This document shows, one piece after another, positions 28,029 through 31,884 of a stretch of 64,000 nucleotides of DNA. The notes under the pieces were generated by a model. That model saw nothing but the letters and a program-made list of their open reading frames with translations. It was not told where the DNA came from and did no database searches. The DNA is from Anaerolineaceae bacterium (lineage in GTDB: Bacteria; Chloroflexota; Anaerolineae; Anaerolineales; Anaerolineaceae), in NCBI GenBank assembly GCA_002702705.1, contig PABH01000020.1, positions 124,001-188,000 of the forward strand, given 5' to 3'. A program made the position numbers and the translations under genes. The stretch's first letter is position 1. Every line of letters begins with the position of its first letter.

Positions 28029-28058
28029 TTGACATAGAGGTCAATCAATGTGTAGAAT
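28029..28058 (+). promoter_or_regulatory. Sigma-70-type promoter for the small transcription unit
   Basis: A perfect TTGACA at 28029-28034 and TAGAAT at 28053-28058 with an 18-base spacer. It points to the short ORF at 28108 and the ABC ATPase gene beyond. Confidence 0.65.
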
Positions 28059-28107
28059 CATTATTATGAAACCATGTAATTTTGTTAAAAAGGAGATAAA
28101 TAACCTT

Positions 28108-28260
28108 ATGGTGTCTGAAGACACTGATGGTGGATCTGAAAGCGTACCTCCCAGTAGACGTAGCTTTAATCCATTATCAACAAACCAAATAAATCAATCT
28201 ATTGCGGAGAATAATATTCTCCAAAATCGGTATAGGTTTCAAGGAGTCAGCAGCTTTTAA
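28108..28260 (+). CDS. Small ORF, 50 residues, function unknown (possible leader peptide)
   Basis: An AAGGAG site precedes this 50-codon frame by 12 bases, which is a little long. The same frame can be read from an ATG at 28048. The peptide is hydrophilic and rich in serine and asparagine, with no signal or membrane segment, and ends in NRYRFQGVSSF. It sits between a good promoter and a stable hairpin, before the atypical ABC ATPase at 28358. It may be a real small protein, a leader peptide, or chance. The last residues faintly recall the start of bacterial Ser/Thr kinase domains, but no kinase follows. The 410-bp stretch between metG and the ABC gene holds this ORF, its promoter and the hairpins. 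Confidence 0.4.
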   Translation: MVSEDTDGGSESVPPSRRSFNPLSTNQINQSIAENNILQNRYRFQGVSSF

Positions 28261-28293
28261 GGTGATATTTCAACACCTTGTTTAGGTAATTAT

Positions 28294-28326
28294 CCGGCTG
28301 GCTTCTTAACCAGCCGGTGTTTGTTT
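28294..28326 (+). terminator. Hairpin terminator or attenuator before the ABC ATPase gene
   Basis: CCGGCTGG and CCAGCCGG form a perfect 8-bp GC-rich stem with an 8-base loop (28294-28317), followed by a broken T-run TGTTTGTTT. A smaller hairpin GGTG/CACC at 28261-28277 precedes it. The AACACC arm at 28272-28277 could pair instead with GGTGTT at 28316-28321, an arrangement that would compete with both hairpins. Confidence 0.6.
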
Positions 28327-28357
28327 AAAAAGTACCTGAACAGGAAGGAGACCTGCT

Positions 28358-29248
28358 ATGCGGTTTTTAACATTACGTGTTGAAAATGTCTCAAAAATTT
28401 ATGGTGAGAATTTTCGTTTACAAAATCTGGTTTTAAATGTTGAGCCCGGTGAAATTATTGGTTTATTAGGTTCGAAAGGATCTGGAAAAACATCCTTTCT
28501 AAACTTGATTATTGGAAAACAAAAACCATCTTCGGGAACAATTTTGGTCTCTGGTAAAGATGTTCACCAAGGTCGGAAAAAAATCAAAAAAAATATTGGC
28601 TACTTATTGCCAGTCCATAAAAATTTGTTATTTTTGCGAGGATGGCATTATTTATGGGTAATATGCAAGCTGTATTCACGACCGTTTGATATAACACAAA
28701 TTGAACTACTGGCACAACGATTCCAGATCGATCTACACCAAGCTGTTAAATCATACACATTGGAAGAGCTTCAAGCGTTTCGTTTGATTTTTGCTTTTAT
28801 TGAACCGGTTGATTTAATTGTTTTGGATGAACCAGTCTTGAATTTATCGCTAAATGGTTTAGATTGGTATCATCGATATATTAAAATTGCGCGAGCGAAA
28901 GGTACGTCTATCCTCTTCACGACTGAAAATATTTCAGAAGTAGAACGTGTATGTGATTGGGTTGTTTTAATAAACAATGGAAGAATTATTTCACAAGAAC
29001 GTGGAGTTCAATTCCGTGCCAGGTCTATGCGGAAAATTGAAATGCGGTTTGCAAAACCTGTAAAAAAAGATCAATTTGCTGAATTACCAAATATTCAAGA
29101 ACTGTATTTTGAAGGAAACAAAATGCGATGTATGCTAACAGGAGATCCGGATTTGTTGATCAAAACAGCAAGTAAGCTGCGCGTAACTGATTTTATTAGT
29201 ACTCCTCCAACTTTGGACGAAACATTAGCGATCTATAACACGATTTAA
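28358..29248 (+). CDS. Atypical ABC-transporter-type ATPase with degenerate signature motif
   Basis: A 296-residue protein with one ABC ATPase domain. Walker A (GSKGSGKT) near residue 41 and Walker B (LIVLDEP) near residue 150 are intact. The ABC signature LSGGQ is replaced by YTLEEL, and the H-loop histidine after Walker B is absent (TTENISEVE). A C-terminal domain of about 80 residues follows, as in ABC-2 drug/antibiotic exporters. No permease gene is adjacent. It may be a regulatory or inactive relative that pairs with a distant permease. A GGAAGGAG ribosome binding site precedes the ATG. Confidence 0.75.
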   Translation: MRFLTLRVENVSKIYGENFRLQNLVLNVEPGEIIGLLGSKGSGKTSFLNLIIGKQKPSSGTILVSGKDVHQGRKKIKKNIGYLLPVHKNLLFLRGWHYLWVICKLYSRPFDITQIELLAQRFQIDLHQAVKSYTLEELQAFRLIFAFIEPVDLIVLDEPVLNLSLNGLDWYHRYIKIARAKGTSILFTTENISEVERVCDWVVLINNGRIISQERGVQFRARSMRKIEMRFAKPVKKDQFAELPNIQELYFEGNKMRCMLTGDPDLLIKTASKLRVTDFISTPPTLDETLAIYNTI

Positions 29249-29286: not shown

Positions 29287-29316
29287 TTGTTGTAGCTGTT
29301 TGCATTCATGTATAAT
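29287..29316 (+). promoter_or_regulatory. Candidate promoter of the NfeD-slipin operon
   Basis: TTGTTG at 29287-29292 and a perfect TATAAT at 29311-29316 with an 18-base spacer. The leader to the ATG at 29344 would be about 20 bases. Confidence 0.55.
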
Positions 29317-30859: not shown

Positions 30860-30898
30860 CAACCGGCTGCATATAAGGATGTAGCCGGTTGATATCTT
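30860..30898 (+). terminator. Rho-independent terminator after slipin gene
   Basis: CAACCGGCTGCAT and ATGTAGCCGGTTG form a 13-bp stem with one G-U pair and a 6-base loop (30860-30891), followed by the weak U-rich stretch ATATCTTGTTT. Confidence 0.75.
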
Positions 30899-31748: not shown

Positions 31749-31795
31749 AAACAAAGAGGCCAGCACTTTGCTTGCTGGCCTCTTTGTTTTTTTAG
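31749..31795. terminator. Bidirectional terminator between SWIM gene and tRNA-Ser
   Basis: AAACAAAGAGGCCAGCA and TGCTGGCCTCTTTGTTT form a perfect 17-bp stem with a 7-base loop (31749-31789), and T-runs lie on both sides. It serves the SWIM gene on the plus strand and the tRNA on the minus strand. Confidence 0.93.
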
Positions 31796-31884
31796 CGGAG
31801 AGAGTGGGATTCGAACCCACGGTGGCCCATACAGACCACAACGGTTTTCGAGACCGCCCCGTTCAACCACTCCGGCATCTCTCC
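31796..31884 (-). tRNA. tRNA-Ser (anticodon CGA)
   Basis: An 89-base class II tRNA. The acceptor stem GGAGAGA/TCTCTCC, the anticodon stem-loop with CGA (31848-31850 on the complement), a long variable arm with GTGG/CCAC, and the TTCGAAT T-loop with GTGGG/CCCAC stem are all visible. No CCA is encoded. A TATAAT on the minus strand at 31901-31896 lies 12 bases upstream and is a likely -10 element. It reads UCG codons. Confidence 0.97.

Follow-up and report, generated by a model that had tools for sequence, protein, structure and literature searches.

RESULTS

Genes and features of the locus

The window, i.e., the whole stretch of 64,000 nucleotides of Anaerolineaceae DNA analyzed here, contains an ABC ATPase gene that is preceded by a promoter, a short leader ORF and several hairpins. 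The features are as follows.

28029 to 28058, + strand: promoter TTGACA-18-TAGAAT, 11 of 12 consensus matches, top site within 4 kb
28090 to 28095, + strand: Shine-Dalgarno sequence AAGGAG of the leader ORF
28108 to 28260, + strand: leader ORF of 50 codons (MVSEDTDGGSESVPPSRRSF...GVSSF), very probably the remnant of a MarR-type regulator gene
28108 to 28155, + strand: acidic, proline-containing N-terminal stretch with 4 D/E in residues 2 to 16, proposed ribosome-destabilizing element
28125 to 28179, + strand: hairpin H1 inside the leader ORF, an extended stem in the window and a possible pause hairpin
28241 to 28251, + strand: putative antiterminator strand A (AAGGAGUCAGC) within the final codons of the leader ORF, 11 bp with strand B (P = 0.004)
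28258 to 28280, + strand: hairpin H2, spanning the stop codon and beyond (TAAGGTG/CACCTTG, 28258-28264/28274-28280), enclosed by the predicted antiterminator
28297 to 28307, + strand: strand B of the putative antiterminator (GCUGGCUUCUU), situated in the 5' arm and loop of H3
28294 to 28327, + strand: intrinsic-terminator-like hairpin H3 (CCGGCTGG/CCAGCCGG, stem 28294-28301/28310-28317, z = −4.9) with a T-rich tail
28343 to 28350, + strand: Shine-Dalgarno sequence of the ABC gene
28358 to 29248, + strand: ABC ATPase gene (PF00005, 3.1e−16)

An initial annotation had described a near-consensus promoter, a 50-residue ORF, a small GGTG/CACC hairpin (H2; P = 0.054 against shuffles) and a GC-rich stem (H3), and all of these are present. 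Within 4 kb, 11 promoter-like sites were found and 12.2 were expected, i.e., their count is not above chance; visual inspection showed a similar promoter at the equivalent position in the relatives with upstream sequence. The stretch from 28065 to 28360, taken as a transcript, gives a better fold than 200 of 200 shuffles (z = −4.4). At the Rfam gathering score, the whole window returned one tRNA only and nothing at the leader stretch, and no Rfam family matched in six member loci. Further downstream, the window has a tRNA-Ser (cga) gene on the minus strand (31795 to 31884) and, after the stomatin gene, a strong terminator-like hairpin of 13 pairs (30860 to 30891) that also contains CCGGCTG.

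The ABC ATPase is unusual. In the alignment Walker A and B are kept and the canonical signature motif is missing, and its end branch is the longest in the tree (1.49 versus a median of 0.09). Because of this long branch and an unusual letter make-up, its placement in the tree is unsure. It matches the GldA and DrrA models well under their cut-offs. In the window no permease gene lies beside it, the next ORF being nfeD, which leaves it without the adjacent ABC-2 permease by which we recognize an ABC exporter. By a simple ORF criterion, a permease-like hydrophobic ORF directly follows the ATPase gene in 13 of 31 genomes; the one such ORF tested gave an ABC2_membrane_2 match below the cut-off. 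Comparison of the protein with named genomes returned 12 weak matches with 24 to 29% identity, which we judged to be non-orthologous. Nothing links the ATPase of the window to Mg2+ directly.

A profile search over 147 genomes of the family identified an ortholog of the ATPase at an E-value of ≤1e−110 in 31 of them, the next family match being at 5e−81; in a sample of the order, the next-best ATPase matches came from three genomes (1e−95 to 1e−99) that lack this leader. A full regulator of about 170 residues precedes the ABC gene in 16 of the 31 genomes. It is also present in G048, where the contig stops in the first codons of the ABC gene and which was left out of the tree, bringing the number to 17. 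The other 15 genomes, the window's included, have a short ORF of 43 to 63 codons instead, and none of the 15 has a regulator match at an E-value of 0.001. The comparisons below cover these 32 homologous loci (17 full-regulator and 15 short-ORF members).

Three relatives (L095 to L097) share the window's gene order of metG, regulator, ABC gene, nfeD and stomatin gene, and in the window the leader ORF occupies the place of their intact regulators, between metG and the ABC gene; in L095 a permease-like ORF separates the ABC gene from nfeD, which is not the case in L096 and L097. Each of the seven congeneric genomes has metG and nfeD as direct neighbors, 122 to 230 nt apart, and lacks the unit between them. 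The window carries CATGTATAAT upstream of nfeD (29307 to 29316), a sequence that by eye is common to 6 of these 7 genomes; given this conservation, a separate promoter may drive nfeD, whose expression would then not have to rely on the attenuated transcript. The leader and ABC genes of G088 (L126) and G130 (L128) are nearly identical despite different genus codes, reflecting either a recent transfer or an assembly or contamination artefact; G130 has two copies on one contig, in opposite orientation.

The leader ORF as a probable remnant of a regulator gene

Compared with a profile built from the N-termini of the other 31 members, the N-terminus of the window's leader ORF reached 21.6 bits, and the best of 1,000 shuffles reached 8.5 bits. 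When the profile was restricted to the N-termini of the full-length forms, 15 of 15 short ORFs exceeded all 1,000 shuffles (window, 11.0 bits; best shuffle, 8.1 bits). The match to the whole-length regulator profile is weak (3.7 bits, E-value of 0.04 for 15 sequences); on this profile alone the homology of the window ORF would be unconvincing, and with the N-terminal profiles it appears clear. Two full-length relatives were compared with the MarR_2 model, and one scored above the cut-off (31.3 versus 27 bits) and the other just under it (26.8 bits). We presume that these MarR-type regulators are GbsR-like. Pfam found no winged helix-turn-helix domain in the window ORF (zero families), which makes it a remnant and not a member of the MarR-type regulators.

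The full forms with upstream sequence, 16 of 16, carry a palindrome, ATTTCAGTCTTGACAGAAAT, over the −35 region with 13 to 16 of 16 positions matching (G008, with 36 nt upstream only, was omitted from the count). This palindrome is probably the operator of the full-length regulator. In all 15 short forms, the window among them, only 8 to 10 of the 16 positions match, which is the level of shuffles. The short forms have lost the DNA-binding core and the palindrome and have kept the acidic N-terminus, the pairing strand and the terminator. The −35 region of the window (28029 to 28044) has a different palindrome, TTGACATAGAGGTCAA, at this place, which may be due to chance or be the site of another regulator. 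In the congeneric genome G005 (L052), a regulator paralogue is preceded by TTTCAGTATTGACTGAA, which resembles the palindrome of the full forms.

How often did the shortening occur? On the best ATPase tree the short form requires four changes, and the starred branches alone force two; G018 (short) clusters with G011 (full) with a support of 95/96. A single origin of the short form was rejected (AU test, P = 0.0115), and hence more than one event removed the DNA-binding core together with the palindrome. We infer that the full form is ancestral. Six more distant paralogues that we read have neither the acidic, proline-containing tail nor the strand A end. Within the full regulators, the same codon is used for the same residue at a frequency of 0.60 to 0.75 in the first 40 alignment columns and 0.29 to 0.64 in most of the rest, which would be expected from selection acting on the RNA in the full regulators too. 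Taken together, the N-terminal profiles and the position of the ORF indicate that the window's leader very probably descends from a regulator gene.

This descent could reflect plain decay, in which the regulator core was lost and the stump, promoter and intercistronic terminator persist without regulation. The missing palindrome and DNA-binding core, the very long branch of the window's ATPase and the absence of the whole unit from all seven congeneric genomes would fit such a history. However, short ORFs of more than one origin have remained open as far as the end region, and in 13 of the 15 short forms the ORF end pairs significantly with its own terminator. We consider decay very improbable.

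A predicted antiterminator/terminator switch

In the window, strands A and B can form 11 bp, including two G-U pairs, around H2, and the folds of relatives indicate that this pairing excludes H3. The last nucleotide of the stop codon lies 9 nt beyond the 3' end of strand A. The antiterminator has a calculated energy of −21.4 kcal/mol before the 3' arm of H3 exists, and the form with H2 plus H3 reaches −24.5 kcal/mol afterwards and is slightly more stable. The antiterminator was calculated to be less stable than H3 in G015 and G043; in the other members the comparison favors the antiterminator, partly because H2 is counted in it. The core of H3, CCGGCTGG or a close variant, is found in 32 of 32 members, and 29 of 32 have at least 5 T among the first 8 bases of the tail (the exceptions are G139, G015 and G018, the automatically chosen stem in the last not being H3).

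The search for strand A was confined to the final 33 nt of each ORF. In 27 of 32 members this ORF end forms a stronger pairing with the arm plus loop of its own H3 than shuffles do (P ≤ 0.05; window, P = 0.004); G015 (P = 0.50), G052, G047, G088 and G130 show no significant pairing. Fisher's method gave P = 4e−26 over 21 representatives, hand-chosen to thin near relatives, and P = 1.8e−14 over the 10 short representatives, and own pairs are more stable than cross-genome pairs (means of −20.75 and −16.7 kcal/mol; permutation P = 5e−5 over the same 21), these Fisher and permutation values overstating independence since the members are related by descent. The arm-plus-loop test was chosen after the folds of relatives had been seen, and six held-out loci, described below, serve as a check. 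An earlier test with the 8-nt H3 arm only had given P = 0.23 for the full and P = 0.014 for the short forms, and adding the loop revealed the signal.

The preference for the own partner is centered on the ORF end, with an own-versus-cross z of −7.6, and falls to −2.2 for the segment shifted 12 nt upstream, which still overlaps it. Seven segments further upstream (24 to 96 nt) gave z values of +0.1 to +1.3, and the stretch after the stop codon gave +1.0. Two segments near the ORF start gave −1.0 and −1.7, the latter (nt 31 to 63) being a weak own-pair signal (P = 0.047). On the side of the terminator, the H3 loop alone reached −4.8 and the 6-nt arm alone −0.1, compared with −4.3 for the terminator itself as the positive control. 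In a gapless alignment of the two strands, 83.2% of the cells are paired, compared with 28 to 52% in slid registers, and 33 two-sided compensatory changes were counted versus 14.4 in shuffles, a number reached in 0 of 500 shuffles; G015, G052 and G071 fit the gapless register poorly and thereby reduce these counts. One of the five pair measures, the count of pairs that show a two-sided change, is at chance level (7 versus 5.8, 119 of 500 shuffles).

These observations bear on what is conserved at the locus. The initial annotation had set the conservation of the ORF against that of the hairpins, and the answer is divided: the N-terminus of the peptide is kept and its middle is not, and the paired RNA strands are kept. 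By reading, strand A lies in a different reading frame in G000, G071, G074 and G089 than in the full regulators, so that in these genomes the RNA, and not the peptide, is conserved. A small-protein gene with its own terminator had been offered as another possibility; the 50-residue product would then be functional, for example through an acidic tail that works in trans, and the hairpin would do no more than terminate its transcript. The N-terminal tail is indeed recognizable in all 32 members and in seven leaders of Mg2+-transporter operons, and the suggestion may hold for the peptide as such. However, it leaves unexplained the covarying antiterminator, which is independent of frame in several genomes, the peptide middle is not conserved, and conservation lies in the paired RNA strands instead. 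We give the small protein a very low probability, the lowest among the readings that we weighed.

At this locus an intrinsic-terminator-like hairpin lies between the leader and the gene, a mutually exclusive antiterminator appears to be under selection (27 of 32 members, own-versus-cross comparison, covariation and held-out loci), and translation of the leader ORF would cover one strand of the switch. A translation-coupled transcription attenuator is well supported by these comparisons, and we hold it to be highly probable. The attenuator with a leader peptide proposed in the initial annotation remains the best reading, with a different conserved competitor, namely, the ORF end pairing with the 5' arm and loop of H3 in place of the AACACC/GGTGTT pairing.

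Other hairpins and pairings

The AACACC (28272 to 28277) and GGTGTT (28316 to 28321) sequences are complementary and had been thought to compete with both hairpins. A 6-nt match of this kind arises in 46 of 300 shuffles of the window and is found at the corresponding regions of only 4 of the 32 loci (the window, G072, G089 and G074); this competition is at chance level and not conserved, and we dropped it. The GGTG/CACC hairpin had been assigned the role of a competitor as well, and it rather sits inside the predicted antiterminator. Over representatives, H2 gave Fisher P values of 6e−5 (10 short) and 0.005 (11 full).

H1 forms an extended stem in the window (fold z = −3.88). At the homologous place, over the early proline codons, 29 of 32 members have a stem of at least 5 bp, and the window has only 4 bp by that test. 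The energy of the whole region compared with synonymous shuffles gave P = 0.012 for the full and 0.26 for the short forms, and a test focused on the stem gave 3e−4 and 0.007, respectively. In a sliding control no other of 21 windows stood out in the full forms, i.e., the signal is position specific there; in the short forms an offset of +21 codons reached a similar value (P = 0.0074). We have moderate confidence that H1 is a conserved hairpin.

Could strand A or H3 instead control the translation of the ABC gene, by sequestration of its ribosome-binding site? Folds of the window pair this site partly with the ORF end (P = 0.03). Over representatives, however, such a pairing was not significant (P = 0.57 for the full and 0.10 for the short forms), nor was a pseudoknot between the H3 loop and the Shine-Dalgarno sequence of the ABC gene (P = 0.10 and 0.14), and the T-rich tail of H3, kept in 29 of 32 members, speaks for a terminator. 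Both pairings were rejected, and we regard control of translation in place of transcription as very unlikely.

Leaders upstream of Mg2+-transporter operons

A covariance model spanning strand A to H3 was searched over the 147 genomes of the family. It recovered the members and six new leader loci outside the training set, all with genus code g8, at E-values of 1e−10 to 2e−9 (G150, G159, G162 and G153), 7e−7 (G152) and 6e−4 (G158). A seventh locus with the same genus code, G155, came from an upstream scan (pairing of ORF end and terminator, P = 0.002) and was the only one looked at among the matches with E-values between 0.0018 and 0.1. A match in G012, at the end of a 227-aa gene without such a leader, was taken as chance. 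At the level of the order (E-value of 0.001), the search returned one match beyond the family, to the terminator part alone (G249, 9.9e−4).

The leaders of g8 have 37 or 62 codons, begin with M.LEE.G.SKDVPPLS... and precede genes for an MgtE_N/CBS protein and an Nramp protein; Pfam confirmed two MgtE_N proteins and one Nramp protein. The ORF ends of the six held-out loci, which represent one genus only, fit their own terminators, with 10 of 720 permutations being as good and single P values of 0.001 to 0.034; for G159 the value rose from 0.034 to 0.068 when another version of the test was applied.

Homologues of MgtE_N occur in 62 of the 147 family genomes, and no match to the MgtE_N protein was obtained in the genome of the window at an E-value of 1e−30. 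Thirty MgtE_N loci were fetched, of which 7 have the leader described here and 9 have other short acidic ORFs; in the remaining 14 either no leader was found or the upstream sequence was not readable. The nine acidic ORFs (G068, G066, G055, G134, G019, G106, G128, G113 and G109) are without visible similarity to this leader, as exemplified by ...DLDPDPNRR... in G134. A terminator was found for four of them, with pairing P values of 0.004, 0.016, 0.124 and 0.303, and the other five have no terminator by the criteria used. Dissimilar short acidic ORFs precede MgtE_N/Nramp operons in other genera (L190, L192 to L196 and L199 to L201). The data suggest that acidic leaders before such operons arose independently several times. 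No riboswitch reached the Rfam gathering score in 20 MgtE_N loci, some of which were cut by contig ends, and in seven MgtE_N loci the ORF-based switch stands in the riboswitch's stead. According to an excerpt of the published account, Mg2+ is transported elsewhere by an Nramp-related importer that an Mg2+ riboswitch controls (PMC4072509).

DISCUSSION

Proposed mechanism and signal

Our favored explanation is an attenuator whose leader ORF was left behind by a lost regulator gene, which would operate in the cell and respond to ribosome stability. We give this whole explanation a probability of about 60%. Its parts differ in strength.

We propose that transcription starts at the promoter (28029 to 28058) and that ribosomes translate the 50-codon ORF. 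A ribosome at the ORF end would cover strand A and leave strand B in H3, and transcription would terminate before the ABC gene. When ribosomes stop short of the ORF end, strand A would pair with strand B around H2, H3 would not form and the ABC gene would be transcribed. The condition that makes ribosomes drop off early, at the acidic, proline-containing N-terminus, would most likely be low Mg2+, and H1 might act as a pause hairpin holding RNA polymerase and ribosome in step. In the relatives with a full regulator, the same attenuator would follow a gene that is probably autorepressed through the palindrome, and the window would have kept the attenuator layer alone. The sequence comparisons support the homology, the terminator and the covarying antiterminator with its first strand in the ORF end, and the attenuator probably operates in the cell.

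Why Mg2+? All 38 leaders (32 members and the six new loci) begin with an acidic, proline-containing stretch, with 3 to 6 D/E in residues 2 to 16 and a P in residues 9 to 20. The mean number of acidic residues in positions 2 to 16 is 4.0, compared with 2.44 in windows elsewhere in the full regulators, a difference to be read in the light of acidic N-termini being common in general. The downstream gene is an MgtE_N/Nramp operon in seven relatives and the ABC ATPase in the window and 30 other genomes. In MgtL, as far as the excerpt goes, ribosomes dissociate at EPDP at low Mg2+ and mgtA is then transcribed (PMC11282234), and Asp2 and Glu5 of mgtQ promote the production of an Mg2+ transporter (PMC8092293, likewise an excerpt). 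By analogy with MgtL and mgtQ, strand A should become free at low Mg2+, which would switch on the gene, and we somewhat favor Mg2+ or ribosome stability as the signal.

The same attenuator could respond to another signal, namely, a general slowing of translation by antibiotics or starvation, or stalling at Pro-Pro upon a shortage of EF-P, and it would then control a drug-export-like ABC protein. The precedent is bmrB-bmrCD, described in the available part of the source as a 53-aa leader with terminator and antiterminator upstream of an ABC transporter that is induced by ribosome-targeting antibiotics (PMC4191407). PP occurs within residues 9 to 20 in 32 of 38 leaders, and the ATPase matches the GldA and DrrA models, if well below their cut-offs. 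However, the identical type of leader stands before an MgtE_N/Nramp operon in seven relatives, dissimilar short acidic ORFs do so in other genera, and a permease-like ORF right after the ATPase gene in just 13 of 31 genomes does not favor drug export. We regard a signal of this kind as unlikely, if still a serious alternative to Mg2+. In bmrB, according to the same partial source, abolishing translation lowered read-through (PMC4191407), which argues against the simplest form of our own model.

If low Mg2+ is the signal, a transcription factor gene would have served as the sensory leader of its own operon, and repeated deletion of its middle would have turned it into a pure sensor of ribosome stability. 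The ABC ATPase may then be no transporter and may help against destabilized ribosomes or membranes at low Mg2+. We put forward this extended scenario tentatively and consider it doubtful.

The locus documents a possible route by which leader ORFs of attenuators arise, the hollowing-out of a regulator gene that already bears the switch at its ends. It provides a short candidate sensor of Mg2+ or ribosome stability, and it ties an orphan family of ABC ATPases to the same putative control as an Mg2+-transporter operon. Judging by the dissimilar short acidic ORFs that precede Nramp-type operons in other genera, acidic sensors of ribosome stability may be more widespread. MgtL has been described in enteric species, which are far from the bacteria studied here.

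Comparison with known systems

Attenuators before ABC genes have been described in general, as stated in an excerpt of PMC2965389. Among the matches listed for the open-licence literature (titles and the starts of abstracts) on regulator-derived or degenerate leaders, on MarR-linked or Anaerolineae attenuators and on ribosome destabilization in connection with Nramp or Chloroflexi, there was no account of an arrangement like the present one. The leader of the window would work like the bmrB and MgtL leaders, a likeness by analogy that places it in neither group.

Like full-length MarR-type regulators, the locus has relatives with a MarR_2 match and, in the full forms, a palindrome over the −35 region, whereas the window ORF is without a helix-turn-helix. 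With M-box control of Nramp-related Mg2+ importers (PMC4072509, in excerpt) it would share an Mg2+-linked RNA control of Nramp-related genes; unlike there, the MgtE_N loci have the ORF-based switch (seven loci) and no riboswitch at the Rfam gathering score (20 loci). The mgtL leader of mgtA (PMC11282234, in excerpt) also has an acidic, proline-containing start, and a drop-off of ribosomes favors downstream expression there, as we propose here; Mg2+-transport genes lie downstream, as they do in seven relatives. The terminator of mgtL is, by that excerpt, Rho dependent, whereas here it is intrinsic and follows a leader of 37 to 63 codons or a whole regulator gene. In mgtQ of mgtCBRU, Asp and Glu early in a short ORF likewise promote the production of an Mg2+ transporter via alternative stem-loops, but this ORF has 8 codons and, as described in the part of the source available, acts on the translation of mgtB (PMC8092293).

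The nearest working analogue of the proposed switch is bmrB-bmrCD of Bacillus subtilis. It has a translated leader of 53 aa, an intrinsic terminator that competes with an antiterminator and an ABC gene downstream, and efficient translation was proposed to prevent the antiterminator, according to the accessible part of the source, which also places the terminator inside bmrB and gives antibiotics as the signal (PMC4191407). In the window, in contrast, strand A is provided by the ORF end, the stop codon precedes the terminator and the leader very probably goes back to a regulator gene, and in relatives this type of leader also precedes an Mg2+-transporter operon.
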